From Malonomonas rubra DSM 5091 (lineage in GTDB: Bacteria > Desulfobacterota > Desulfuromonadia > Desulfuromonadales > Geopsychrobacteraceae), in NCBI RefSeq assembly GCF_900142125.1, contig NZ_FQZT01000003.1, positions 1 through 64,000 of the forward strand: a stretch of 64,000 bases of DNA, read 5' to 3'. Positions 1-12,123 of the stretch are shown piece by piece (the first letter of the stretch is position 1; each line of letters begins with the position of its first letter). Below the pieces are notes generated by a model. It searched no databases. It was not told the origin of the DNA and saw nothing but the letters and a program-made list of their open reading frames with translations. The position numbers and the translations under genes are program-made.

Positions 1-332
1 CCTGAAAGTGCGCAAGCGAGTCGAGGAGATCTTCGGCTGGATCAAGACGGCAGGCTTGCTCCGTAAAACCCGCCACCGGGGCCTTGATCGCGTTGAGTCT
101 ACCTTTACCCTGGCAGCGGCAGCCTACAATCTGGTCAGGATGCGCACCCTGATTTGGGGATTGTGACGAAAAGGGAGTCGATCACGCCGATTGCATCGCG
201 ATAAATCGCGAAAACGGTTCCAATGGCGCTTGAAAATGGTCAGAACTAACGAAACATAGATTGTCAAAGAGCAAAAAATTCTTCTCGGGAGGATAGAGGC
301 CAACTCCCGGCTAGTTTTTCAACGGCCTGTTA
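1..332 (+). mobile_element. Right end of an IS5-type insertion sequence, cut by the window edge
   Basis: Seen: the 3' end of a transposase frame is followed by about 145 noncoding bases and then AGTTTTTCAACGGCCTGTTA at 313-332. That sequence resembles the terminal inverted repeat of many IS5-group elements. The left part of the element lies outside the window, so completeness and target duplication cannot be judged. The end lies about 16 bp from the stop of cheW. Confidence 0.75.
2..166 (+). CDS. IS5-family transposase, C-terminal fragment (partial at window edge)
   Basis: This is an open frame of 54 residues ending in TGA at 164-166 and entering from outside the window. It carries the motif R-V-E-E-I-F-G-W-I-K followed by a T-L-A-A-A-A-Y-N-L-V-R-M segment, which is typical of the C-terminal end of IS5-type DDE transposases and includes the catalytic Glu region. 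The encoded role is cut-and-paste transposition of the element. Whether the full gene is intact cannot be seen here. Confidence 0.85.
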   Translation: MKVRKRVEEIFGWIKTAGLLRKTRHRGLDRVESTFTLAAAAYNLVRMRTLIWGL

Positions 333-347
333 GACTTTTGTGATAAT

Positions 348-860
348 CTATGCGCCAACCGCCATTTGCTGCGGACTGTCTGCAGGGCCGCCCGTCAGCG
401 AAAGGTCATCGGCTGAGAAAACTCGGTCGATATCGAGAATGATGATGAACTGATCATCCTGCTTGCCCATGCCCTTGATAAAATCGGTGTTCAATCCCGT
501 GCCCATTTTCGGTGCCGGCTCAATCTGTTTCGCTCCCAGGTCAAGCACTGCCTGCACTGAATCTGCCAGCGCACCGATCACCGCCACGTCCTCACCCAGG
601 GTCACTTCGGTGATAATGATGCAGGTGTTCACGGTCTGTTCGGTTCTATCCATGCCGAACTTCAGGCGCATATCGACCACCGGCACAACACTGCCACGCA
701 GGTTGATCACTCCACACATGAAATCAGGCATCTGCGGCACCTTGGTGATGCAGGTAAAATCGAGCACCTCACGCACTTTGGCGATGTCCAGGGCGAAAAC
801 TTCATCCGCCAGTTTGTAGGTCAGATATTGACCTGTTTCGAGACTCATACTTCCACTCAT
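348..860 (-). CDS. cheW: CheW-type chemotaxis coupling protein
   Basis: The 170-residue protein has the whole CheW fold: an N-terminal YLTYKLADEVFALDI strand, the VREVL segment, the conserved GVINLRGSVVPVVDMR core at about 50-65, and a C-terminal IIILDIDRVFS strand. CheW couples methyl-accepting receptors to the kinase CheA in the cytoplasm. No cheA, cheR, cheB or receptor lies nearby. It sits 44 bp downstream of the degenerate receiver gene and is probably co-transcribed with it from the sigma-54 promoter at 1296-1314. The IS end lies directly beyond its stop. Identity is secure; which chemosensory array it serves is not known. Confidence 0.93.
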   Translation of the reverse strand: MSGSMSLETGQYLTYKLADEVFALDIAKVREVLDFTCITKVPQMPDFMCGVINLRGSVVPVVDMRLKFGMDRTEQTVNTCIIITEVTLGEDVAVIGALADSVQAVLDLGAKQIEPAPKMGTGLNTDFIKGMGKQDDQFIIILDIDRVFSADDLSLTGGPADSPQQMAVGA

Positions 861-904
861 CTGTCACTCCTTCGGGTAAAATCGGATGCCTGTTGTTTTC
901 ACAT

Positions 905-1258
905 CTATGTGGTCAATGCGCGAACCTGCCCCAGTAGATTCTCCGGTCGGCACAGGACAAATTCCGCGTCTTCGCCTGAAAAGCGAATTTCATCGCGCAA
1001 CACCGACAACATTGGGACTGCAACCCCCTGCTGCTTCAATTGTGGCAACAGGTCAAGCAGCGACAAGCTCTGGCTGTGATCGTTAATTACCAGAAGGCTC
1101 GCCTGCGACGATGAGTTGGCCCGGCTGACCAGCCAGTTGAAAGCTTCCTCGCCACTTCGCACAACAGCGACACGATAATTGGCCAATTGCAGAAGAAACC
1201 GGGTTGAACTGACCTTTTCCAGCGATGAATCAAACAACAGAATCGACTGTTCACTCAT
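905..1258 (-). CDS. Degenerate response-regulator receiver-like protein
   Basis: The 117-residue protein has the length and strand pattern of a stand-alone receiver domain. Visible are an N-terminal hydrophobic strand with an acidic end (ILLFDSS), a central LLVIND strand whose Asp could be the phospho-acceptor, and a C-terminal FVLCRPE segment where an Arg stands in place of the conserved Lys. The acidic pair after strand 1 is reduced to one Asp. This argues against ordinary phosphorylation switching and for a partner-binding role. It is the first gene after a sigma-54 promoter and precedes cheW, so a role in chemosensory output is inferred. Confidence 0.6.
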   Translation of the reverse strand: MSEQSILLFDSSLEKVSSTRFLLQLANYRVAVVRSGEEAFNWLVSRANSSSQASLLVINDHSQSLSLLDLLPQLKQQGVAVPMLSVLRDEIRFSGEDAEFVLCRPENLLGQVRALTT

Positions 1259-1295
1259 AGAAAACTCACTTTCCCAGTGTTAGCTCATGCTAATT

Positions 1296-1314
1296 CAGCA
1301 AGGTCGATGCCAAA
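1296..1314 (-). promoter_or_regulatory. Sigma-54 (-24/-12) promoter for the receiver/cheW pair
   Basis: On the minus strand the sequence reads TTTGGCATCGACCTTGCTG. The GG (1310-1311) and GC (1298-1299) dinucleotides are separated by exactly 10 bases and sit in near-consensus TGGCAT and TTGCT contexts. The predicted start lies about 30 bp before the ATG at 1258. The neighbouring gene encodes an NtrC-type activator, the protein class needed to fire such a promoter. Confidence 0.75.
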
Positions 1315-1419
1315 CCCCAGAAAAACTATAAACAACCTGTTTTCACATGATTTTTGCCGACAGAGGGGACATTCAGGAGAGTCGTGGAAGGGTGTAAAAA
1401 AAGTTACGGCAGGAACATA

Positions 1420-1454
1420 AAAAGAGGCTAACCTCAGCAAAAGATTAGCCTTCT
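1420..1454 (-). terminator. Rho-independent terminator after the NtrC-type regulator
   Basis: Read on the minus strand, GAAGGCTAA and TTAGCCTC form a stem with a loop of about 13 bases, followed by TTTTTAT. It lies about 35 bp after the stop of the response regulator at 1489 and separates it from the sigma-54 promoter of the next unit. Confidence 0.7.
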
Positions 1455-1488
1455 CAAATTTTAAATTTTTTTCACACTGTGCAAAAAG

Positions 1489-2931
1489 TTACTGGGTTCT
1501 GGAATCCTCTTCCCGCAATTTTTTCAATCGTTTGCTCAGTGCCGGTCGGCTGATACCGAGTAGCTGGGCAGCGATAGTCTGGTTGTTCTGCGCTCGTTTC
1601 ATCGCTTCTTCGACCAACAGGTTGGCGGCTTCAGCCAACGTCGGCAATTCTTGATGAAAACTGAGCAGGGACTCGCCTGTACTTGTTCTGTCTTCTGCTT
1701 TTATCCCCTTCAGCGGATGACTGCCGATCGCTTGTTTGAATGAACTTTGCGACAACTTTCCAGTTTGATGACGGCTGACCGCATCGTACACCATCCCTGC
1801 CAGTTCACGCACATTGCCAGGAAAATGATACGTACTCAGCAGCACTTCCAGCTCCGGTGGTGGCGTCGGCACCTTTTTCCCCAGTTCGGCAGCGCTTAGC
1901 CGGAGAAAATGATCAAGCAGCAGCGGGATATCATCACGTCGGTTACGCAATGGTGGAAGCTCGATCTGGTGGGTCTTCAGCCGATAATAAAGATCTTTGC
2001 GAAATTCACCGGCATGCTGCATCTGCTCCAGATTGCGGTTGGTAGCAACCACAATCCGTGCCTGGGAACGTTTCGGCCGATCACTGCCAAGAGGGAAATA
2101 CTCCCCTTCCTGCAACAATCGTAGCAGCTTGACTTGCGAACTCGGCGTCATGTCGCCAATTTCATCGAGGAACAACACTCCTGCGCCTGCCTGCTCGATC
2201 ATCCCCGGCCGATCCTTATCCGCCCCGGTAAAGGCTCCTTTGCAGTGACCGAACAGGGTGTCAGAAAACATATTGTCGTCCAGCCCGGCGACATTCACCG
2301 CAACGTAAGGTGCATCCGGGTTATACAATCGAGCAATGGCCCGGGCGATCAGTTCTTTGCCGACACCACTTTCGCCGCTGATCAGGATCGGCTGTTTACT
2401 GCCTGACACCGCCTCGACATATTTCAGCAGGGTGGACATCTGCTTATTCTGGGTGATGATTTCAGAAAAAGCACCCGGGTGCTCCAGTTCATCATGAATC
2501 AAGCTTGTTTTGATGCGCTGGTTTTCACGCAAAGCTTCCTGCATACGCAGGGCTCGGCGGATACCGAGAGTCAGACGCTCCGCCTCGACACTTTTGACGA
2601 AGAAATCAAAAGCCCCCAGCCGCATGCATTCGACGGCAATCTCCAGCTGATTCAGGCCGGTCAGCACAATCACCGGGATTTCCGGGTACTCGGCCGAGAT
2701 CAGTGGCAACAGTTCATCCCCGGTCAGGTAGGGCATGGTCAGATCGAGCAGAATCAGGTCGATCTTCTGCCGCTGCAGGATGCCCATCACTTCGCGGCTG
2801 TCGAGACACTGCTCCACACGAGTCAAGCCGATCCGTGCTAATGTCAGGCGCATCCCGTGCAGCCAAGCAGCCTCATCGTCGACCAGCAACAGCGTCGGGG
2901 TGTTATCCTGCGAATCGGTCATCGGTTTCAT
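1489..2931 (-). CDS. NtrC-family sigma-54-dependent response regulator
   Basis: The 480-residue protein has three parts. The receiver (about 14-130) has the acidic pair at 18-19, phospho-acceptor Asp63 and Lys113. The AAA+ activation domain has Walker A GESGVGKE at 186-193 and the sigma-54 contact loop GAFTGA at 231-236. The C-terminal Fis-type helix-turn-helix ends in LLGISRPALSKRLKKL. It activates sigma-54 RNA polymerase after phosphorylation. Its start overlaps the 3' end of the histidine kinase gene by 29 bp, so the two are cotranslated and form a cognate pair. The likely target is the sigma-54 promoter at 1296-1314 just downstream; that link is inferred. Confidence 0.95.
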   Translation of the reverse strand: MKPMTDSQDNTPTLLLVDDEAAWLHGMRLTLARIGLTRVEQCLDSREVMGILQRQKIDLILLDLTMPYLTGDELLPLISAEYPEIPVIVLTGLNQLEIAVECMRLGAFDFFVKSVEAERLTLGIRRALRMQEALRENQRIKTSLIHDELEHPGAFSEIITQNKQMSTLLKYVEAVSGSKQPILISGESGVGKELIARAIARLYNPDAPYVAVNVAGLDDNMFSDTLFGHCKGAFTGADKDRPGMIEQAGAGVLFLDEIGDMTPSSQVKLLRLLQEGEYFPLGSDRPKRSQARIVVATNRNLEQMQHAGEFRKDLYYRLKTHQIELPPLRNRRDDIPLLLDHFLRLSAAELGKKVPTPPPELEVLLSTYHFPGNVRELAGMVYDAVSRHQTGKLSQSSFKQAIGSHPLKGIKAEDRTSTGESLLSFHQELPTLAEAANLLVEEAMKRAQNNQTIAAQLLGISRPALSKRLKKLREEDSRTQ

Positions 2932-4813
2932 CCTTTTGCGTCGGCAGTTCTAGGGCAACAGTCGTTCCCTGCCCCGGCTCGGAAGCAAAGTGCAAACGCC
3001 CGCCATGTTCTCTGACAATGCGCGCGGCGATCGACAGTCCGAGCCCGGTGCCGCCCAGTTCCCTTCGGGTTGTAAAGAACGGATCTGTCACGTGTGGCAG
3101 GTCTGCTTCGCTGATGCCACACCCTTGGTCGGCCACTTCGATCAACATGCTCTCCCGCCCCTGGGCCATCTGCACCCGTAATTCAATCGCGCACTGGCGA
3201 TCCGGCAGAGAATTACAGGCATTGAGCAACAGGTTGAGCAGAACCTGTTCAATCTGTGCCGCGTTCCCTTTCAGCAAAGACAAATCATCTGCCAGCTCGT
3301 AGTGGAAATTATCTGTCGATTTTTTCAATGTGTTGCCAGCCAATCGCAGGACCTTCTCAATCGATGGGCCGATAGCAAAAGGCCCTTCCAATTCACCGGG
3401 ATCGCTGCGGACAAAGTTTTTCAGGTCATCGACGATCTGACGAATTCGCGTCGCCCCTTCCCGCAGCTCGCTCAATAATCGTGGCAGGTCCTCCCGCAGC
3501 ATTGAGAATGGCAACCCGGCCAGGGTGTATTCGCCTTCGCGATCGAAACGCTCCTGCAGAATCGGCAGGGCATCGTTAAAGACATCCTCCAGCAACGGCA
3601 GGTTGAGCAGCAGCAGACCGTTCGGGTTATTGATCTCATGAGCAACACCGGCGGAGAGCTCGCCAAGGGCCGCAAGCCGTCCAGCCCGGTCCGCCTCGTC
3701 GCGCAGCTTTTTCTTCTCGGTAATATCGCTAGCCAGGTGAACAACATTGACCACTTTTCCGCTGGCATCCTTGATCGGACAGACTTTTATTCCCCAGATC
3801 CGACCATCTGCGTGCTTGCGAATGGCATCGACCGTTTTCCCGCTGGCAAAACTCTGTCTGGCAACGCAATCGTCACAGGGATCATCTGAATGCTCCCAAA
3901 GCTGATGACAAAAACGGCCGGGTATGTCGTCAAAATCATCGCCGAGTAACGCCGATGTATTACTGTTGGCCCAGACAATTTTCAGATCGCGATCAAGCAG
4001 CATCAGGGAATCGGGAATACCATCGAGCACAGTCTGAAATTCCTGCGACAGGGCTTTGTAGCGGCCCTCACTCTTTTCCAGAGTCATTTCGGCCAGCCGC
4101 CTGGCGGTGATATCGGTGTAGATGCCAAGCACGCCGGAAACTTTGCCGTCAGGGCCTTTCAGCGGCACCCGGCTGGTCAGCAGGGTCGCCAGGCTGCCAT
4201 CCTCCCGCTGGTGCTGTTCCTCAAAATCGAGCAGGGGAAAATCCTTTATCATGACCTCTTGGTCACACTGTTGAAACAGCAAGGAATCCTCGCTGCCTCG
4301 TGGCAGCTCTTCTGCAGTTGTGCCGACCAGCTGCTGCGGAGAATCGAGCCCGACATCAGCAGCAAAGTTAAAGTTACCGCCGGCATAAACCAGGTCACGG
4401 TCTTTCCAGTAAATTGAATGGGGAATGTTGTTGATGATATTGCTGAACAGGTTGTTCTGCTCCAGCAGGCGGCCTGCCTCACTGCTACGCTCCGAGATGT
4501 TGCGGGCCACTAAAAGCAGACAATCCGGCTCTCCAGTCCGCTCAATCCGGCTGACCCGCACTTCAACGGGAAGGTTCAGCTCATCACCGCAGAGCAGGTT
4601 AAGTGCGTAAAGCCCAGGGACCAGCAGACGAGAGGGGCTCGCGCCTCCGACCTCCAGCTGCTGCAATGTCAACTGCTGCAAGCGTTCGCCAGACATCCTC
4701 AACAGTTTGCATGCGGCAGGATTCGCAGCCAGCAGCTGCCCCTGCAGGTCGCAAAGCAGTAGCGCATCACCTGCCTGGAGAAAAATTTCCGAGGTTAAAA
4801 AGTCTTGAGTCAT
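2903..4813 (-). CDS. PAS-domain sensor histidine kinase
   Basis: The 636-residue kinase shows no transmembrane segment. Three PAS domains occupy roughly 8-120, 125-250 and 265-375; the third carries a DDPCDDC cysteine motif that could bind a metal or respond to redox. The H-box is GVAHEINNP with His392. The N-box (LLNACNS), the VADQGCGIS G1 box and the GTGLGLSIA G2 box follow. It phosphorylates its cognate NtrC-type regulator, whose gene overlaps its 3' end. A candidate sigma-54 promoter lies just upstream. The signal is unknown; the cytoplasmic PAS array and cysteines suggest an internal redox or metabolite cue (inference). Confidence 0.95.
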   Translation of the reverse strand: MTQDFLTSEIFLQAGDALLLCDLQGQLLAANPAACKLLRMSGERLQQLTLQQLEVGGASPSRLLVPGLYALNLLCGDELNLPVEVRVSRIERTGEPDCLLLVARNISERSSEAGRLLEQNNLFSNIINNIPHSIYWKDRDLVYAGGNFNFAADVGLDSPQQLVGTTAEELPRGSEDSLLFQQCDQEVMIKDFPLLDFEEQHQREDGSLATLLTSRVPLKGPDGKVSGVLGIYTDITARRLAEMTLEKSEGRYKALSQEFQTVLDGIPDSLMLLDRDLKIVWANSNTSALLGDDFDDIPGRFCHQLWEHSDDPCDDCVARQSFASGKTVDAIRKHADGRIWGIKVCPIKDASGKVVNVVHLASDITEKKKLRDEADRAGRLAALGELSAGVAHEINNPNGLLLLNLPLLEDVFNDALPILQERFDREGEYTLAGLPFSMLREDLPRLLSELREGATRIRQIVDDLKNFVRSDPGELEGPFAIGPSIEKVLRLAGNTLKKSTDNFHYELADDLSLLKGNAAQIEQVLLNLLLNACNSLPDRQCAIELRVQMAQGRESMLIEVADQGCGISEADLPHVTDPFFTTRRELGGTGLGLSIAARIVREHGGRLHFASEPGQGTTVALELPTQKDETDDRFAG

Positions 4814-4836
4814 GCATAAAGCAAAGCAAAAAAATC

Positions 4837-4853
4837 AGCAATTGTATAGCCAC
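4837..4853 (-). promoter_or_regulatory. Candidate sigma-54 promoter upstream of the histidine kinase
   Basis: The minus strand reads CGTGGCTATACAATTGCTG around this site. GG (4850-4851) and GC (4838-4839) are 10 bases apart, with a good ATTGCT -12 box and a weaker -24 box. The predicted leader before the kinase ATG at 4813 is only about 14 bases, which lowers confidence. If real, the kinase-regulator pair could be autoactivated. Confidence 0.45.
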
Positions 4854-4937
4854 GGCGATCTTTTTTTCTTTGCAATCAAACGGAAAAAAGCACTACCTTG
4901 TCGCCGGGATAGATTCATATGTACAAGAGGTGGCAGC

Positions 4938-5417
4938 ATGCAGTTGGTCTTTTTACACGGGCTCGAATCCGGCCCACATGGGGCGAAATTCCAAGCTCTG
5001 AAGAAACATTTCGGCGCAGTTATCTCGCCTGACTGCAGCGGCATTTCCGACCCGTGGCAACGACTGCAGATCATTCGGGAAACCCTGGCGGAGCAACCCG
5101 GCCCCTTTCTGCTGATCGGCTCGAGCATGGGCGGTTTGATGGCACTGTTGCTGCAGCGGGAAATCCCGCGACAAGTTGCCGGCATGCTGCTCTGCGCCCC
5201 GGCCCTGCATCGCCCGGCGGGTGAAGGTTTGACTTCGGCAGGACTGCCGCCGAGCCTCATCATCCACGGCCGACAGGACGATGTGGTGCCGATCGAAGCA
5301 AGCCGTAATTTTGGCCTGCCGCTACTGGAAGTGGATGACGATCACAGCCTGCGGGATAGCCTGCCACTGATCATTGCAGAAACGGAAAAATTGAAACAAA
5401 TATTGGAACAGGAATGA
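4938..5417 (+). CDS. YqiA/UPF0227-like alpha/beta hydrolase
   Basis: This is a 159-residue small esterase-like protein. The start is ATG 4938, preceded by AGAGGTGG; a longer frame upstream has no comparable ribosome site. The N-terminus is QLVFLHGLESGPHGAK. The nucleophile elbow is GSSMGG at about 55-60, an acidic residue is in HGRQDDVVP, and His is in DDDHSL, giving a Ser-Asp-His triad. The short length and lack of a large cap fit the YqiA-like group. The substrate is unknown; ester hydrolysis in the cytoplasm is expected. Its stop overlaps the next start by 4 bp, so it is cotranslated with the DMT transporter. Confidence 0.85.
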   Translation: MQLVFLHGLESGPHGAKFQALKKHFGAVISPDCSGISDPWQRLQIIRETLAEQPGPFLLIGSSMGGLMALLLQREIPRQVAGMLLCAPALHRPAGEGLTSAGLPPSLIIHGRQDDVVPIEASRNFGLPLLEVDDDHSLRDSLPLIIAETEKLKQILEQE

Positions 5418-6310
5418 AACAGGGAACACTCAAGGCCGATATTTTACTGGTGCTGACCGCCTCGATCTGGGGATTTGCTTTCGTCGCCCAGCGGGTGGGG
5501 ATGGATTACGTCGGCCCCTTTACGTTCAATGCTATCCGTTTTGCTTTGGGCAGCCTGTCACTGATTCCGCTGATCCTGCTGCTGCAGAAAAACAAGCCGA
5601 CGGCAGAGCTGACAGAAAAGAAATCCTTCTGGATCGGCGGGCTGCTGGCCGGGGGCGCGCTCTTCGCCGGCGCATCGCTGCAACAGGCCGGGCTGGTCTA
5701 CACCACCGCGGGCAAGGCCGGCTTCATCACCGGCCTTTATGTCGTCATGGTGCCGCTGCTCGGACTGTTCTGGCGTCAGCGCCCCCACGCCGCCACCTGG
5801 ATCGGTGCCCTGCTGGCGGCAATCGGCCTTTATTTTCTGAGTGTCACCGAAGAGTTCACCATCGCCTTCGGCGACCTGCTGGTTCTCTGCAGTGCTTTCT
5901 TCTGGGCAGGGCATGTGCTGCTGATCGGCTGGCTGGCGCCGCGCACCGACTCACTCAAACTGGCATCAGCCCAGTTTGCCATCTGCTCGCTGCTCAGTTT
6001 CGCCACCGCGTTCGCCATCGAAACCGTGGCGTTTGAAACCATCATGCAGGCGGCAATCCCGATCCTTTATGGCGGCCTCGGTTCGGTCGGCATCGCCTAC
6101 ACCCTGCAGGTCATCGCCCAGCGCGAAGCGCACCCGGCGCATTCGGCCATCATTCTCAGTATGGAAGGGGTTTTTGCAGCCATCGGCGGCTGGCTGATGC
6201 TGGGCGAGCTGCTGTCGCTGCGCAGCCTGCTCGGTTGTGCCTTGATGCTCGGGGGGATGTTGCTGTCAGAGCTGTCAAACTTTTTCGGCAGAAAAGCTGA
6301 GTCCTCTTAA
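5414..6310 (+). CDS. EamA/DMT-superfamily transporter
   Basis: The 298-residue inner-membrane protein has ten predicted hydrophobic helices arranged as two EamA repeats. Visible are the first-repeat TASIWGFAFVAQRVGMDY signature and, in the second repeat, SMEGVFAAIGGWLMLGE. DMT proteins of this type export or import small metabolites; the substrate cannot be read from sequence. The start overlaps the stop of the hydrolase gene by 4 bp (ATGA), which indicates translational coupling. Confidence 0.92.
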   Translation: MKQGTLKADILLVLTASIWGFAFVAQRVGMDYVGPFTFNAIRFALGSLSLIPLILLLQKNKPTAELTEKKSFWIGGLLAGGALFAGASLQQAGLVYTTAGKAGFITGLYVVMVPLLGLFWRQRPHAATWIGALLAAIGLYFLSVTEEFTIAFGDLLVLCSAFFWAGHVLLIGWLAPRTDSLKLASAQFAICSLLSFATAFAIETVAFETIMQAAIPILYGGLGSVGIAYTLQVIAQREAHPAHSAIILSMEGVFAAIGGWLMLGELLSLRSLLGCALMLGGMLLSELSNFFGRKAESS

Positions 6311-6322
6311 ACCCGCTTTACT

Positions 6323-7063
6323 TCAAGCAAAGATTTCTGCCGCACGGCAGGCAGACCCGACAATTCCAGCCTGGTTACGAAGTTCGGCCGGGAGTAGTTC
6401 GGCGTGCAGGTCGAGATAGGGAAAAAACTTGTCGTGCTTGCGGCTTACCCCACCACCAATAATGATCAATTCCGGCGAGAGAAGGGTTTCGACCTGGATA
6501 AAAAAGGTGTTAAGCCGCTTTGCCCAGGCTTTCCAGCCGAGATCTTCCTTTTTACGCACAGCAGCTGATGCGTACTTTTCGGCAACCCCGGTTTTCAGCC
6601 ACAGGTGGCCCAGCTCACTGTTGGGATAAAGAGAACCGTTGTAAAAAAGAGCAGAGCCGATCCCGGTCCCGAGAGTCAACACCAGCACAGTCCCCTTGCG
6701 CTCGCGACCTGCACCAAAGCGCATTTCGGCCAGCCCGGCGGCGTCGGCATCGTTGATTACGCTGCAGTCGCACCCCGTGGCTGTTCGGATCAATTGTTCA
6801 ACATCGATATCGATCCAGCTTTTATCGATGTTGGCCGCGCTTTTTGCCACACCATTGCTGATCACGGCCGGAAAGCCACAACCGATCGGCCCCTGCCAGT
6901 CAAACTGTGTCACCAACTCGGCGACAGTTTCCGAAACGGCCTGTGGTGTTGCCGGCTGCGGCGTCTCCAGCCGCAAACGTTCACCGACCAGACATCCTTT
7001 GTCGACATCGACCAAGGCTCCCTTGATGCCGCTACCACCGATATCGATCCCCAGAAATGTCAT
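6323..7063 (-). CDS. ppgK: Polyphosphate glucokinase (ROK family)
   Basis: The 246-residue protein starts at ATG 7063 behind a perfect AGGAGG; an upstream in-frame extension lacks a ribosome site. It has the ASKHA phosphate-1 loop [11 protein letters not shown] at the N-terminus, the CGFPAVI segment, VINDADAA with the catalytic Asp, the [12 protein letters not shown] phosphate-2 loop and PNSELGHLW. The last two are characteristic of strictly or mainly polyphosphate-dependent glucokinases. It phosphorylates glucose to glucose 6-phosphate in the cytoplasm. It converges with the DMT gene, 12 bp apart. Confidence 0.88.
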
Positions 7064-7170
7064 CAATCCTCCTGCGCGCTCGAAAAAACTTAGTATAGCC
7101 GTTTTTTTGCCCGGCGCAGTGCGCAATCGTACCGAAATGCTGCCCAGGAGTCATGTTTCCCGAGGCGGTT

Positions 7171-7584
7171 TCAACCTGTCTGCTTTAACCCGCAACGGCC
7201 ACTGTCACAATCGTTTTTGCGTTTCGGCAGCAGATGGCGGTAACGGGCGAAAAGCTTGTAACCTCCCCGGCTGAGCAGGTCGATTCCGGGCAAACCAACC
7301 AAGGCACTGAACAGGCGATAAACTGAACCACTGGGGTACGCTTGCCAGATTGTGGTGAAGGCGTCGATACCGGTGGTGAAGTTTCCTTCACCGTCACGGA
7401 CATGCAACTGGGCCATGAACTCGGCTTTGCTTTTTCCGTATTCTTCCGGCTGAAAATCTTCACGGCTGATATCGATAAACTGCAAATGCCCGTGCACATT
7501 GCGCTTGCGGTAATGATCCATCTCTTTGCTGCAAACGAGGCAGGCACCATCGTAAAATATCTGTAACGGAAATGCGGTCGCCAT
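7171..7584 (-). CDS. DUF393 (DCC-family) thiol-disulfide oxidoreductase-like protein
   Basis: The 137-residue protein opens with FYDGACLVCSKEM, the D-G-x-C-x-x-C signature of the DUF393/DCC family. These proteins are thioredoxin-like in their motif, but their substrate is largely unknown. ATG 7584 is chosen because AGGAGAGG lies at good spacing; a GTG six bases upstream is the alternative. The C-terminus is basic and includes LLPKRKNDCDSGRCG with further cysteines. It is monocistronic by spacing. Function beyond thiol redox is not assigned. Confidence 0.85.
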   Translation of the reverse strand: MATAFPLQIFYDGACLVCSKEMDHYRKRNVHGHLQFIDISREDFQPEEYGKSKAEFMAQLHVRDGEGNFTTGIDAFTTIWQAYPSGSVYRLFSALVGLPGIDLLSRGGYKLFARYRHLLPKRKNDCDSGRCGLKQTG

Positions 7585-7789
7585 CGGCACCTCTCCTTTC
7601 CAGAACCTATTGGACTCATTCTACCAGCAGAACAGTCAACAACGGAAGTGCAAGCCGGCGAAATGTATACCGATACATGGGAGCAACAGGTCCTCAGCGG
7701 TTTTCTTTGTATCCAGAGGCCAGTTTGTGGTAATTTGCACAGCGTTTTCGTCGACACAAACAACCCGAAAAATAGAAAATATTCATAAA

Positions 7790-8278
7790 ATGGCAAAAGG
7801 GGACACTAAAGGAATGTTCAGCGGCATGTTCGTGGCTTATGCCGTGCTGCTGCTGCACCTGCTGCTGATCGTCGGACTCGGTGCCGGAGTTGTTCTGATC
7901 AAAGGGATTTTCGACTTCCGCTGGTACATTCTCGGTGGGGGCACCCTGCTCCTTTGCATCTCTGCGATCCTCTTCTTCCGCTACCTGAAAGCCAGTAACA
8001 AGAGCCTGAAAGAGGCGATGAACGATCCAGCGCTGCGTGACAAAACGCTGGAAATCAGCTTTCTCGGTGGAATGGCCTCGGTCCGCGTCGGCCACAACCC
8101 GCAGATGCAAAACCAGCCACAGTTGATTGATGTGCATGAGGTTCAGGAGATCAAACAGCTGGCTGCGCCGCGCACCCAGGTCGAAGAGTTAAGCGATCTG
8201 GCAAAGATGCTGGAAAACGATCTGATTACCCGTGAAGAATTCGAGCGGATGAAAAAAGACATCGTCAACGGTCGGTGA
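7790..8278 (+). CDS. Two-TM membrane protein with C-terminal SHOCT domain
   Basis: The protein has about 162 residues from ATG 7790; ATG 7814 or 7826 are possible alternatives because the ribosome site is not decisive. Two hydrophobic helices (about 13-40 and 44-66) are followed by a cytoplasmic segment. The C-terminal helical hairpin LAKMLENDLITREEFERMKKDIV matches the SHOCT oligomerisation domain, which is usually found at the end of membrane or secreted proteins of unknown role. No enzyme motif is seen. The gene lies directly upstream of the tRNA cluster but is separate from it. Confidence 0.75.
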   Translation: MAKGDTKGMFSGMFVAYAVLLLHLLLIVGLGAGVVLIKGIFDFRWYILGGGTLLLCISAILFFRYLKASNKSLKEAMNDPALRDKTLEISFLGGMASVRVGHNPQMQNQPQLIDVHEVQEIKQLAAPRTQVEELSDLAKMLENDLITREEFERMKKDIVNGR

Positions 8279-8339
8279 GTGAAAAAAAGCTTGCAGATTT
8301 CGTTATGATGGTATAGATTCCTCTCCGCTTCAACGCAAT

Positions 8340-8416
8340 GGGGCTGTAGTAGAGTTGGTTACAACGCCGGCCTGTCACGCCGGAGGTCGCGGGTTCGAGT
8401 CCCGTCAGCCCCGCCA
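8340..8416 (+). tRNA. tRNA-Asp (anticodon GTC), copy 1
   Basis: A 77-nt cloverleaf with acceptor GGGGCTG/CAGCCCC, anticodon loop CTGTCAC giving GTC, T-arm CGGGTTCGAGTCCCG and an encoded CCA end. It is the first of three clustered tRNAs. A TATAGA -10-like box at 8312-8317 precedes it. Confidence 0.97.
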
Positions 8417-8438
8417 TCGCGTTGCAAACAAGTTTCAA

Positions 8439-8514
8439 GGGCGAATAGCTCAGCTGGGAGAGCGCCTGCCTTACAAGCAGGATGTCGGGGGTTCGAGCCC
8501 CTCTTCGCCCACCA
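8439..8514 (+). tRNA. tRNA-Val (anticodon TAC)
   Basis: A 76-nt cloverleaf with acceptor GGGCGAA/TTCGCCC, D-arm AGCTCAGCTGGGAGAGC, anticodon loop CTTACAA giving TAC, and encoded ACCA. It lies between two identical tRNA-Asp genes, 22 bp after the first. Confidence 0.97.
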
Positions 8515-8518
8515 ATTT

Positions 8519-8595
8519 GGGGCTGTAGTAGAGTTGGTTACAACGCCGGCCTGTCACGCCGGAGGTCGCGGGTTCGAGTCCCGTCAGCCCCGCCA
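8519..8595 (+). tRNA. tRNA-Asp (anticodon GTC), copy 2
   Basis: This is a 77-nt sequence identical to the tRNA-Asp at 8340-8416. It is only 4 bp after tRNA-Val, so the three are one transcript. The perfect duplication suggests recent tandem copying or gene conversion. Confidence 0.97.
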
Positions 8596-8604
8596 TCTAA
8601 CAAT

Positions 8605-8642
8605 AAAAAGGCGATCCCGTTTCGGTGATCGCCTTTTTCTTT
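8605..8642 (+). terminator. Rho-independent terminator of the tRNA cluster
   Basis: AAAAAGGCGATC and GATCGCCTTTTT form a 12-bp stem around a loop of about 9 bases, with a T-rich tail. It starts 10 bp after the last tRNA. Confidence 0.9.
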
Positions 8643-8667
8643 TCTCGGTGCATAGCGGGGTGATTCG

Positions 8668-9093
8668 ATGGACGGAGCAAAAATCGACAGTCAACTCTGC
8701 AGCCAGTGTGGCGGTCGCTGCTGTCAGGGACATCCAGGGGTCTGGAGCGACCCGCAACGCTTCTTTGCCATTTTCTTTTCTGGGCAAACGCCAACTGCCG
8801 ACCAACTGCGCCAACTGCTTGCCGAGCGGGATATCGAACTGCGTGATCTGGGGGGGATACTGATTCCAGCCCCGAAGAACACTGCCACCGGCTGTATAGC
8901 CCAAGGGAGCAATGGCTGCAGTTATCCGGTCGAGACCCGCCCCTGCCAATGTCTCGCCCTTATTCCGGACCTGGAAACACTCCTCGACGACACCATCCAT
9001 TGCTCCCTGCCACCGGAATTCGGCTCCGGAACAGCTCGCAACAACTGGCGCCCTTTTCAGCCGCTACTACAAACAGTTGCCTCACCTGATTAA
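8668..9093 (+). CDS. YkgJ-type zinc/iron-chelating domain protein
   Basis: The 141-residue protein has the N-terminal cysteine cluster LCSQCGGRCCQG (C-x2-C-x3-CC) and later GCSYPVETRPCQC, the pattern of the YkgJ/CxxCxxCC family. These are predicted metal- or Fe-S-binding cytoplasmic proteins with no settled biochemical role. The start at ATG 8668 has a GGGGTGA stretch upstream. It lies alone between the tRNA terminator and the next unit. Confidence 0.82.
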   Translation: MDGAKIDSQLCSQCGGRCCQGHPGVWSDPQRFFAIFFSGQTPTADQLRQLLAERDIELRDLGGILIPAPKNTATGCIAQGSNGCSYPVETRPCQCLALIPDLETLLDDTIHCSLPPEFGSGTARNNWRPFQPLLQTVASPD

Positions 9094-9162
9094 TCATGTC
9101 AAAATTCCTTACATCTCCCCCGTTCTTTTGATTTATTCCTTAAAGTTCAACAACTTAAAAAC

Positions 9163-9179
9163 TGGCTATTTTTTTGCAT
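9163..9179 (+). promoter_or_regulatory. Sigma-54 promoter upstream of a small conserved protein
   Basis: TGGCTATTTTTTTGCAT has GG at 9164-9165 and GC at 9176-9177 separated by exactly 10 bases. TGGC and TTGCAT contexts match the -24/-12 consensus. The predicted leader to the ATG at 9237 is about 48 bases. Confidence 0.7.
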
Positions 9180-9236
9180 AACGAATATAAGTCCCTTTAA
9201 TTTAAATTATGATTCCTTCCAGGAGGCTCATTCAAA

Positions 9237-9482
9237 ATGCTGATACCGGTCATTTACCCGAACGGCAGCCATGATCAGGTCAAAGATTTCTATCTTGATT
9301 TCCTGATCAGGGAGGAAAAAATAGATCAATTCAAACGCAGCAGTGGCTGGGTGAGCATTTTTGATCACAACATTCGTGGAAAAAAAACAAGCAGTGCCTA
9401 CAACGGCCCAGAACGTCGTCAGAGTTTGCTGGACAAAGAAGAGACACCATCGAACGAGATTGAGTTTTATCCACCTGCCTGA
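9237..9482 (+). CDS. Small conserved protein, GSU3473-like family
   Basis: The 81-residue soluble protein has ATG 9237 placed 12 bases after AGGAGG. The N-terminal half follows the pattern [VI]-I-Y-x-[ND]-G-x-x-D-x-V-x-x-x-[FY]-L-D-x-L-I, with FKRSSGWVSI in the middle and a Y-N-G-P-E-R-R motif near residue 55. A second protein with the same N-terminal pattern is encoded at 34992-35213. I recall this as a family seen mainly in Geobacter-type genomes; the function is unknown. The upstream sigma-54 promoter implies regulated expression. Confidence 0.75.
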   Translation: MLIPVIYPNGSHDQVKDFYLDFLIREEKIDQFKRSSGWVSIFDHNIRGKKTSSAYNGPERRQSLLDKEETPSNEIEFYPPA

Positions 9483-9588
9483 AATATCTGTTAACTCTCG
9501 ACCGAATCATTCCTGCACCTTGCCAAACAACACCCGTTTCGCTAAAGTTACAAGCTATTGAACTTTTGTATCTTGATCGGGTTTTCTC

Positions 9589-10836
9589 ATGCTGCTTCGC
9601 CACGTGCCTGCCAGAGCCTCCAAATATCTCTTCCCACTACTCCTCGCCGTAGTGCTCCTGCTTTGCCCCGGCAACAGTCAGGCAACAAATGGCTACTTAC
9701 AACAGGGGATTGGAGCCAAGGAAGAAAGTCTGGCTGGAGCTGTTCTCGCCTTGCCTCAAAGCAGCATGTCTGCAGCGAGCAACCCGGCGACACTGTCTGC
9801 GACTGGCAATCGGCTCGATATTGGGCTCGACTGGTTCCGCCCCAGTCGCCATGCTGACAATAGTGACGGCAGCGGCTGGCACGAAAGCGATGGCAAAGAT
9901 TACCTGATCCCGCAACTCGGCATCAGCTACCGCTGTAGCGACAGTCTTTCCTTCGGCCTGATCGGTTATGCCAACGGCGGCATGCAGACCGATTGGCGGA
10001 AAAACTTTTTTGGCACGACTCCGACCTACAGCAATTTAAGCCAACTGATTCTCGCACCTACGTTTGCTTACCGATTCAAGGAAAACCATTCTGTCGGAGC
10101 CTCCATCAACTATATCCGCCAAAGCTTTGAAGCCAGGGGTCTGCAGAACTTTGCGGCCTTCACGCCGAGCGGCAGCACTGCTTTCCTGACCAACCGGGGA
10201 GAAGATGATTCAGAGGGCTGGGGGGTTCGCTTCGGTTATTTCGGGCAGCTGACCGATCGAGTCAATATCGGCGCTTTCTGGCAACCGAAAACCAGTATGA
10301 GCAAATTTTCCCGCTACCGCGAATTACTGCCGGAACAAGGCGGGATGGATGTCCCGGAAAGCTACGGAATCGGCGTCGCGATAAAGCTGCACCCGGCTGT
10401 TTTTGTTGCTGCAGATTGGACCCACATCCGCTTTGCCGACGTCGCCACTCTCGGCAACCACAATACGATTGGAGCTACCCTGCTCGGCAGCGACAATGGG
10501 CCTGGCTTCGGTTGGCGCAATATTGATGTGATCAAGCTAGGCATAAGTTATCGGCCGACAGAAAACTGGACTTTGCGGGTCGGCTGGAACCATGGAAACA
10601 ACCCGGTCCCCAGCAGCCAGACGGCAATAAACGTGTTGAGCCCGGCCACCATTACCGACCATTTTGCATGCGGACTCAGCTGGCAGCCGAACCAGAGTAA
10701 TGAGATATCCCTGACTTACTGGAAAGGTTTCGGGAAGAAAGTGATCGGTGATTTTGCCGCACTCAACGGAGCCGATGCGGCAAACCTGAAAATGCGACAG
10801 GAGAATTTCGGCGTCGCTTACAGTTGGCTGTTCTGA
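9589..10836 (+). CDS. FadL/OmpP1-family outer-membrane transporter
   Basis: The 415-residue precursor has a signal peptide with cleavage probably after SQA. The mature N-terminus ATNGYLQQGIGAKEESLAGA followed by SAASNPA matches the hatch region of FadL-type channels. The rest shows alternating beta-strand patterns and a terminal aromatic residue (AYSWLF), as expected for a 14-strand barrel. FadL proteins import hydrophobic compounds such as long-chain fatty acids or aromatics across the outer membrane. The ligand here is unknown. It is monocistronic, ending at a strong hairpin. Confidence 0.92.
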   Translation: MLLRHVPARASKYLFPLLLAVVLLLCPGNSQATNGYLQQGIGAKEESLAGAVLALPQSSMSAASNPATLSATGNRLDIGLDWFRPSRHADNSDGSGWHESDGKDYLIPQLGISYRCSDSLSFGLIGYANGGMQTDWRKNFFGTTPTYSNLSQLILAPTFAYRFKENHSVGASINYIRQSFEARGLQNFAAFTPSGSTAFLTNRGEDDSEGWGVRFGYFGQLTDRVNIGAFWQPKTSMSKFSRYRELLPEQGGMDVPESYGIGVAIKLHPAVFVAADWTHIRFADVATLGNHNTIGATLLGSDNGPGFGWRNIDVIKLGISYRPTENWTLRVGWNHGNNPVPSSQTAINVLSPATITDHFACGLSWQPNQSNEISLTYWKGFGKKVIGDFAALNGADAANLKMRQENFGVAYSWLF

Positions 10837-10846
10837 CAGATAAGAA

Positions 10847-10883
10847 AACGGCCACCGGACTTTCGTCGGGTGGCCGCTTTTTA
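10847..10883. terminator. Hairpin terminator shared by the convergent fadL-like and ferritin genes
   Basis: CGGCCACCGGA and TCGGGTGGCCG pair around CTTTCG, with an A-run before and a T-run after, so it can work in both directions between the convergent genes. Confidence 0.85.
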
Positions 10884-10892
10884 TTTGCTCAG

Positions 10893-11390
10893 TTATTCCC
10901 CGGGAGCTCCCATAGCGCGATTTCTGCCTCGCTCGATCGATTGCAACGCAAGGTATTCCTTGCCGAAACGATCCATGTTTTCAAGCTCACTGTCGTACTG
11001 ATCGTAGTGAAGTTCTTCGTCCACGACCAGCTCTTCGAACAGCTTCTTCGAGACGGAATCGGCGTTGGTGCCGCACTCATTGGCCCACAGGTTGTAATCA
11101 CGTGCGCTGTCGATTTCCATCTGTCGTGCCATCTTCAACATCTCGGTTACATCCTGAACTTTCTTCACATCTGCTGAAGCTTTCAGCTCAACATCTCCGC
11201 CGAGAAAAAGAATGCGCTCAGCCAGTTTTTCGGCATGCATCATCTCTTCGATGGCAGTCTTCTTGAACAGGCCTGCGAGCAGATCGTAGCCCTGGTCATC
11301 GCAGTGAAAATGAAAGTACATGTACTGCTGCAAAGCTGCGACTTCTTCTCCCACCGCTTTGTTTAACAGTTCGATACTCTTTTCGTGCAT
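10893..11390 (-). CDS. Bacterioferritin/ferritin-like diiron protein
   Basis: The 165-residue four-helix protein has E-x6-Y...E-x2-H motifs: GEEVAALQQYMYFHFHC in helix 1, EEMMHAEKL in helix 2 and DEELHYDQYDSELE in helix 4, giving the diiron ligands of the bacterioferritin family. It would oxidise and store Fe(II) in the cytoplasm. The gene starts 24 bp after the stop of rubrerythrin and is probably the second gene of that operon, which fits a role in iron and oxidative-stress control. Whether it forms a 24-mer and binds haem is not visible. Confidence 0.88.
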   Translation of the reverse strand: MHEKSIELLNKAVGEEVAALQQYMYFHFHCDDQGYDLLAGLFKKTAIEEMMHAEKLAERILFLGGDVELKASADVKKVQDVTEMLKMARQMEIDSARDYNLWANECGTNADSVSKKLFEELVVDEELHYDQYDSELENMDRFGKEYLALQSIERGRNRAMGAPGE

Positions 11391-11414
11391 TTGCTCCTCC
11401 TGATGTAAAAGTTA

Positions 11415-11990
11415 TTACCAGTTCTCTCCGAGCAGCTCAAAGTGAGCCTGCGGGTGAACACAAGCCGGGCACAGGCCCAGGGCTTCTTTACCAGTGTGCA
11501 GATAACCGCAATTGCGGCAACGCCAGGTTACCGTCTCTTCACGCTTGAAAACGCGATCGTTTTCAATATTGGCAAGAAAATCGTTGTAGCGTTTTTCATG
11601 CTGTTTTTCTGCAATAGAGATAGCACGCCAAGCGGCAGCAATCTCCGGGAAGCCTTCCTGATCAGCAGTATCTGCAAACGCCGGGTAGCACTCGGACCAC
11701 TCTTCGTTTTCACCCATTGCCGCAGCCTTGAGGTTTTCGGCAGTTGTACCGATGACACCCGCCGGAAAGGTCGCGGTGATCTCCAGGTCACCTCCCTCGA
11801 GGAATTTGAAAAAACGCTTCGCGTGCTGACGTTCCTGCGCTGCTGTCTCCTCGAAGACATCCGCAATCTGAACGTAACCTTCCTTCTTGGCGACACCGGC
11901 AAAATAGAGGTAGCGACTGCTCGCCTGGCTTTCCCCGGCGAAAGAGGCGAGCAGGTTCTTTTCTGTTTCGGTTCCTTTAATACTAGCCAT
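11415..11990 (-). CDS. Rubrerythrin
   Basis: The 191-residue protein starts at ATG 11990 after AAGGAG; an in-frame ATG upstream overlaps that site. The N-terminal diiron four-helix domain has ESQASSRY, EETAAQERQHAKRF and EKQHEKRY. The C-terminal rubredoxin domain has CRNCG...CPAC for one mononuclear iron. Rubrerythrin reduces hydrogen peroxide to water in anaerobes, with electrons passing from the rubredoxin iron to the diiron site. It precedes the ferritin gene and follows the PerR/Fur regulator on the same strand, a common peroxide-response arrangement. Confidence 0.95.
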   Translation of the reverse strand: MASIKGTETEKNLLASFAGESQASSRYLYFAGVAKKEGYVQIADVFEETAAQERQHAKRFFKFLEGGDLEITATFPAGVIGTTAENLKAAAMGENEEWSECYPAFADTADQEGFPEIAAAWRAISIAEKQHEKRYNDFLANIENDRVFKREETVTWRCRNCGYLHTGKEALGLCPACVHPQAHFELLGENW

Positions 11991-12123
11991 TTTCCACTCC
12001 TTGTTCTTCATGGTGTTGTATAAAATGCCGGCCTAGCCGGCTGCATGGTTGCATTAAATCAATTGTTCAGTTTAACGTGCATTTTTCAGAATTTGTGTAA
12101 AAAGTTTGCTGCAAATATAGTTT

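Follow-up and report, generated by a model that had tools for sequence, protein, structure and literature searches.

A predicted sigma-54 two-component circuit beside a split receiver-cheW operon in Malonomonas rubra and a candidate residue-to-base correspondence in its activator family

In systems of the DctB/DctD type, a kinase and a sigma-54 activator are encoded beside the transporter operon that they control, and CheV proteins are fusions of CheW with a receiver. Sigma-54 control of chemotaxis (che) genes is already known; passages on Geobacter describe predicted -24/-12 elements before some or major che operons (Tran et al. 2008, PMC2577667). According to passages on the sigma-54 regulome of Desulfovibrio vulgaris, activators adjoin the promoters that they control, palindromic sites were found by comparison, and motif similarity does not always parallel the similarity of DNA-binding domains; these passages contain no residue-to-base rule (PMC4641369, PMC3333781). 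Receivers without the conserved active-site residues are described as pseudo-receivers, and as Asp-less where the Asp is missing (passages in PMC12632262). Here we analyzed a stretch of 64,000 nucleotides (nt) of Malonomonas rubra DSM 5091, taken from the start of contig C25 (i.e., the window, to which unprefixed coordinates refer; L and C numbers denote the loci and contigs compared). Close to its left end, genes for a PAS-domain kinase and an NtrC-type activator adjoin those for a degenerate receiver (REC; P0002) and CheW (P0001), all four on the minus strand. At a probability of roughly three in four, these genes would form a self-contained sigma-54 two-component circuit that switches the REC-cheW accessory operon, now split by an insertion sequence.

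The locus resembles each of these systems in part. It shares with the Geobacter che clusters a sigma-54 promoter before che genes in related bacteria, whereas the Geobacter passages name no activator, activator site, or degenerate receiver, all of which adjoin the promoter in the window (PMC2577667). The layout of activator beside promoter is also that of the D. vulgaris regulome, where the activators and motifs described in the passages are different ones. As in DctB/DctD-type systems, kinase and activator stand beside an operon, and 28 of 97 family loci carry a TAXI/TRAP transporter as cargo; in the window, the cargo is instead a chemoreceptor accessory operon. CheV likewise pairs a CheW protein with a receiver, but in the window the two are separate genes (which rules out a CheV-like fusion), the receiver gene comes first, and the receiver is not phosphorylatable by its sequence. 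Compared with the pseudo-receivers described in passages of PMC12632262, its family has a constant position within chemoreceptor operons driven by sigma-54, its own conserved Asn41, and a frequent Cys. Neither a residue-to-base rule for sigma-54 activators nor this pseudo-receiver module was found in the portions of the literature searched, which included PMC11407668 and PMC12316311 and mostly excluded subscription papers.

The initial annotation had pointed to an exactly spaced -24/-12 element before the receiver and cheW genes, and this element was recovered with its position conserved behind related activators. Read on the minus strand from 1312 to 1297, TGGCATCGACCTTGCT has GG-N10-GC spacing, matches exactly the consensus TGGCAY-N5-TTGCW (the sigma-54 consensus is itself quoted in a passage of PMC2725144), and lies 38 bp upstream of the receiver ATG (1258). 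The genome has one rpoN gene. Sixty related genomes, M. rubra included, were searched; all 60 contained a match to the activator (E value, 1e-60), and 18 contained a match to the receiver (E value, 1e-5). From 100 neighborhoods, 80 named loci, and the window, we assembled 99 activator genes with scores above 380 bits and scored their downstream regions with an approximate sigma-54 weight matrix. A promoter of at least 10.5 bits lay downstream of 75 of these genes, compared with 6.7% of random control windows from the same loci; at 13.5 bits or more, the values were 54 genes and 1.7%.

The activator gene overlaps that of the kinase by 29 bp, as the annotation had also reported. Its product is of the NtrC-type sigma-54 response-regulator class, with a receiver, an AAA+ domain containing GAFTGA, and a Fis-type helix-turn-helix (three Pfam families over the cutoff), and is predicted to drive sigma-54 transcription from a distant site. 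No NCBIfam equivalog name was over the cutoff for the activator or the kinase among the best 25 matches of each (115 and 87 families matched, respectively); the PAS model TIGR00229 was over its cutoff. The third PAS domain of the kinase (2903-4813) contains four Cys residues (RFC...PCDDC...VCPI) and might bind a cofactor.

A candidate binding site was obtained de novo by word counts and an expectation-maximization search of the 74 loci with a promoter. The motif is a 20-bp palindrome, approximately gcYRYAACca-tgGTTRYRgc, with preferred centers about 84 to 89, 154 to 157, and 172 to 176 bp upstream of the -24 element. A search for palindromic activator sites between 1315 and 1488, which the annotation had proposed, thus has a candidate in GCCGTAACTTTTTTTACACC (1410-1391), 88 bp upstream of the -24 element; its score of 11.9, obtained with the window excluded from training, compares with a null 99% level of 10.5. 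It is the top match in window positions 1 to 12000, and the next match scores 9.2. A second site at -155 or -172 was rejected (next-best gap score, -1.3), the degenerate half-site there being without score support. When the window's combination of site and promoter was used as a search pattern, the window itself gave the only match in the 3.96-Mb genome, so this particular composite is not repeated there.

The residues of the activator helix agree with this site. In the helix GI[S/T]-X1-X2-AL, the pair X1-X2 tracks the bases before AAC: Q-P goes with YAT, R-P with YGT, and R-Q with YGC. The window pair is R-P, which predicts YGT, and both window half-sites are YGT (CGT and TGT). The rule was fixed in writing before new genomes were fetched (194 searched, 162 with a match), and 95 loci from unseen genomes were used; 65 of them yielded the helix, a stop, and 150 bp or more, a promoter was present in 45 of these, and the exact AACN4GTT core in 31 of the latter. 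Both predicted bases fit in 99 of 114 half-sites of this new set (permuted mean, 0.49; none of 2,000 permutations as high), and the commonest pair fit in 27 of the 28 loci whose helix pair was testable (22 Q-P, 4 R-Q, and 2 R-P); many of the new genomes are close kin, so the loci are not independent. The discovery set, reduced from 100 loci to 88, 67, and 32 by the same steps, gave 76 of 86 half-sites and 26 of 27 loci. Loci with A-P or P-P had TT, and with R-P helices, 23 of the 24 half-sites in the two sets had G as the first base. A tree of 90 rows was built with the helix columns removed, and 52 rows were usable once the core was relaxed; at the first residue, Q went with A in 25 of 25 cases and R with G in 19 of 21, and at the second, P went with T in 33 of 38 and Q with C in 12 of 14. 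A phylogeny-corrected sign test of the code was abandoned for having too few independent contrasts. We conclude that the correspondence between residues and bases is a strong correlation in these sequences; as a product of repeated evolution, it would be modestly supported. The four close paralogues of the M. rubra genome carry R-P (window), Q-P (L108), R-Q (L126), and H-Q (L143), and the two residues seem to keep such sister circuits apart. In the paralogous R-Q circuit (L126:1017-5212, on C26), three proteins of 553, 223, and 480 aa follow, each without a Pfam match at 1e-5.

That the neighboring activator fires the receiver/cheW promoter, as the annotation had proposed, is thus well supported in silico, because the promoter is conserved, the site lies at a conserved distance, and helix residues and site bases agree.

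The cargo of the activator family was examined in 97 loci (the 100 neighborhoods plus the window, minus four without an activator), many of these stretches being cut by contig ends. A kinase gene lay upstream of the activator in 92. Within 1.1 kb downstream, 24 loci (the window included) had a REC-like gene; apart from the transporter loci, 3 had a methyl-accepting chemotaxis protein (MCP) gene without REC, and 42 had other or unseen cargo. All 24 REC loci had a promoter of at least 10.5 bits (23 at 13.5 bits or more), and MCP, CheW, and CheA were encoded downstream in 19, 8, and 4 of them, respectively. The REC profile had 20 rows, six of which (L079, L088, L096, L135, L140, and L143) were picked by position and count as members by construction. 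The arrangement of a predicted sigma-54 promoter before an impaired receiver, which the annotation had not recognized in its combination with cheW, therefore recurs in the family. L079 and L146 have the order REC-CheW-MCP with no insertion between the genes; in L075 and L135, the order is REC-MCP-CheW. The REC-like gene of L141 and that of L146 are each preceded by a further receiver gene that looks canonical (by Pfam for L141). Among the TAXI/TRAP operons (e.g., L107 and L108), 26 of 28 had a sigma-54 promoter of at least 10.5 bits, mostly with a Q-P pair and YATAAC sites.

The receiver had been described as phosphorylation impaired, and the residues of P0002 confirm this: Asn occupies the phospho-Asp position, Ser replaces the second acidic residue, Leu replaces Thr/Ser, and the Lys is lost. 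Judged on these positions, it is an Asp-less pseudo-receiver without phosphorylation chemistry. Searched alone against Pfam, P0002 gave no match over the cutoff (best, KaiA_N; E value, 0.0075), and the 20-row profile found receivers in the PDB (best, 1mvo; E value, 9.6e-7). A structural model of P0002 (predicted local distance difference test [pLDDT] score, 80.2) also had 1mvo as its best match, followed by the KaiA N-terminal domain; the alignment behind it comprised P0002 and seven true receivers, which favors a receiver outcome, and the model has no helix between strands 83-86 and 100-103. The modeled fold is that of a receiver. Across the 20 rows, the phospho-Asp position held N in 11, D in 4, S in 2, and A, F, and a gap in 1 each; Asn41 was invariant, and a Cys lay near the lost Lys in 15 rows (counted by eye; the Lys column is poorly aligned). 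The family seems to derive from a phosphorylatable receiver whose chemistry was lost. Its members might tentatively be viewed as protein-protein adaptors of the receptor/coupler complex, and a redox role, suggested by the Cys and the likeness to KaiA, is speculation. Separately, L199 and L213 (which with L269 are Nitrospirae and Geobacter records) have a canonical receiver where the degenerate one would be, ahead of a che cluster that includes STAS and cheA genes; L269, seen in part, apparently has the same arrangement.

The CheW domain makes up the whole of P0001 (residues 11 to 150 of 170; 126.7 bits versus a cutoff of 23.5). Contig C25 starts inside an insertion sequence that ends at 329, 18 bp past cheW (stop codon, 348-350). 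The genome has three right ends of this insertion sequence (C25, C40, and C19) and three left ends (C35, C34, and C18), and by its 4-bp flank each right end has a single left-end partner: TTAG joins the window to C35, CAAG joins C19 to C34, and CTAA joins C40 to C18. The C19/C34 pairing was independently confirmed by a Secretin domain with positions 1 to 58 on C19 and 58 to 168 on C34. The pilQ-like secretin gene split by that copy (L380:343-2139 on C19 and L385:1188-1520 on C34) is an observation in its own right; type IV pili may be affected.

The order on C35 is the transposase front, an MCP gene (L377:375-2054; sCache_2, HAMP, and MCPsignal), and a CheD gene (2112-2594), in an orientation that continues cheW. 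Because the target-site duplications pair, MCP and cheD can be placed across the insertion sequence from cheW. This pairing, an argument from flanks, shows REC-cheW-MCP-cheD as the probable ancestral unit, split between cheW and mcp. The locus would then be a REC-MCP(-CheW) module, with the MCP placed on C35 by flank pairing. The cheW gene had been taken to be isolated, a description that the paired flanks rule out. The signaling domain of the C35 MCP shares 89% identity with that of the MCP in the complete C17 che cluster (L143) and 88% with that of a second C17 MCP (L378), the next M. rubra MCP in the subset compared being at 51%. The C17-cluster CheW, the sole other match to P0001 in the genome at an E value of 1e-30, is 68% identical to it. 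Since this CheW and MCP are of the type found in the complete cluster, the operon would most likely add a signal-dependent receptor and coupler to the C17 array. In the complete cluster, the REC-like gene and cheY are separated, at the point where relatives have an MCP, by the gene for a 718-aa protein (L143:7600-9756) without a Pfam match at 1e-5.

The insertion sequence between cheW and mcp raises the possibility that the receiver and cheW genes are a decayed, functionless remnant of a che cluster. The lost active site of the receiver, as well as the relatives with a full cluster and a canonical receiver at this place, would fit such decay. Against it, the open reading frames, promoter, and site are intact, similar degenerate receivers are kept in 24 of 97 loci with Asn41 invariant in 20 of 20 rows, and the REC-CheW-MCP order stands without any insertion in L079 and L146. 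We consider decay unlikely.

A switchable operon fired by its neighbor is the reading that we prefer, and a number of observations weigh against it. Within the 64 kb of the window, TGGCAYNNNNNTTGCW has a single match (0.27 expected; at least one in 25 of 100 shuffles), matches with one mismatch number 8 (7.5 expected), and matches of at least 13 bits number 7 (3.7 expected), and a promoter call from the window alone, near chance level, was rejected. Among relatives, 24 of 99 had no promoter of at least 10.5 bits. When the motif was trained without the window, 63 of 74 loci reached the null 95% level for the activator site, a count that is no independent test since the other 73 loci trained the motif; 11 loci had no site above the threshold, among them L069, which is the nearest relative and scores 4.2 bits. 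Many relatives have two or three sites, compared with one in the window. For R-P helices, the rule is looser at the second base, which is T in only 15 of 24 half-sites (C in 7 and A in 2). Independent contrasts in the tree numbered 1 or 2 on supported branches and 2 to 6 on the best tree. Finally, the assignment of the operon to the C17 array and the adaptor role of the receiver are both things that we infer.

The scarcity of contrasts would suit an explanation in which the promoter is real but is fired by another activator, helix and site agreeing through the shared ancestry of neighboring genes and not through direct reading. The Q-P helices form approximately one large clade, and the genome encodes 23 related activators at an E value of 1e-60. 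Yet the two residues behave separately, each with a base of its own (G is common to R-P and R-Q, and T to Q-P and R-P), scattered rows obey the rule (L096 with Q-P and AT, L140 and L093 with R-P and GT, and L155 with P-P and TT), and no supported contrast runs in the opposite direction; we regard another activator as quite unlikely. It is very improbable that the -24/-12 element matches by chance and that REC-cheW is transcribed by read-through from the kinase and activator genes or from another promoter (a weak sigma-70-like match at 1485-1458 is not above chance, with 2 versus 2.5 expected), given that promoter and site positions are conserved across relatives and that a terminator-like stem intervenes, although such stems occur in the region at chance number (6 observed versus 5.8 expected).

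The features of the locus are collected in Table 1.

Table 1. Features at the left end of the window, with coordinates and strand
Feature	Position	Strand	Remarks
Weaker -24/-12-like element before kinase, TGGCTATACAATTGCT	4837..4852	-	Not conserved
PAS-domain sensor histidine kinase, 636 aa	2903..4813	-	Pfam PAS_4, HisKA, HATPase_c
NtrC-type sigma-54 activator, 480 aa	1489..2931	-	Pfam Response_reg, Sigma54_activat, HTH_8
Terminator-like stem-loop between activator and receiver operon	1425..1451	-	11 pairs, then Ts
Predicted activator binding site, GCCGTAACTTTTTTTACACC	1391..1410	-	Score 11.9; center 88 bp upstream of -24
Sigma-54 promoter, TGGCATCGACCTTGCT	1297..1312	-	Start expected at about 1287
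Degenerate receiver, Asp-less pseudo-receiver, 117 aa	905..1258	-	
CheW, 170 aa	348..860	-	Pfam CheW, 126.7 bits
TTAG, right copy of 4-bp target-site duplication	330..333	.	Left copy on contig C35 (L377:339-342)
Insertion sequence, right part (transposase C terminus)	1..329	+	One of three genome copies

A weaker -24/-12 element had also been noted before the kinase gene. The element itself is present at 4852-4837; its part as a promoter found no comparative support. With kinase starts called mechanically, elements of at least 13.5 bits occurred before the kinase only in L072, L073, L096, L166, and L167, and a second sigma-54 promoter was rejected on this lack of conservation. None of the eight best activator-site matches in window positions 1 to 12000 lay near the element. 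A kinase promoter is doubtful.

Under the preferred reading of a self-contained circuit, the kinase would sense a signal via its PAS domains and phosphorylate the activator, as their families suggest. The Fis-type helix of the activator would then bind the palindrome at 1391-1410, the R-P pair selecting YGT-AAC half-sites as in relatives. From there, the activator would contact the sigma-54 polymerase at 1297-1312, and transcription of REC-cheW would start at about 1287. The operon would formerly have run on into MCP and cheD. With the insertion sequence now in between, only REC and CheW may be left under the switch in this genome, where the receiver might serve as a protein-protein adaptor.

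A broader picture, for which we judge the case evenly balanced, is that of one activator family with a two-residue code. The first residue would set the first base (Q for A, R for G, and several others for T) and the second residue the second base (P for T and Q for C). In this way, at least four sister circuits per cell could each control a different neighboring operon, be it for a chemoreceptor module, a TRAP transporter, or something else, without cross talk, and one branch would drive chemoreceptor units headed by a nonphosphorylatable receiver turned into a structural or redox-type adaptor.

Through these comparisons, a sigma-54 element that looked solitary is assigned a particular activator, a binding site, and a cargo. 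The pseudo-receiver family, which recurs at one set position of chemoreceptor operons, offers a handle on the role of phosphorylation-dead receivers. The rule predicts which activator reads which site and could help to assign targets to many sigma-54 response regulators in these bacteria.

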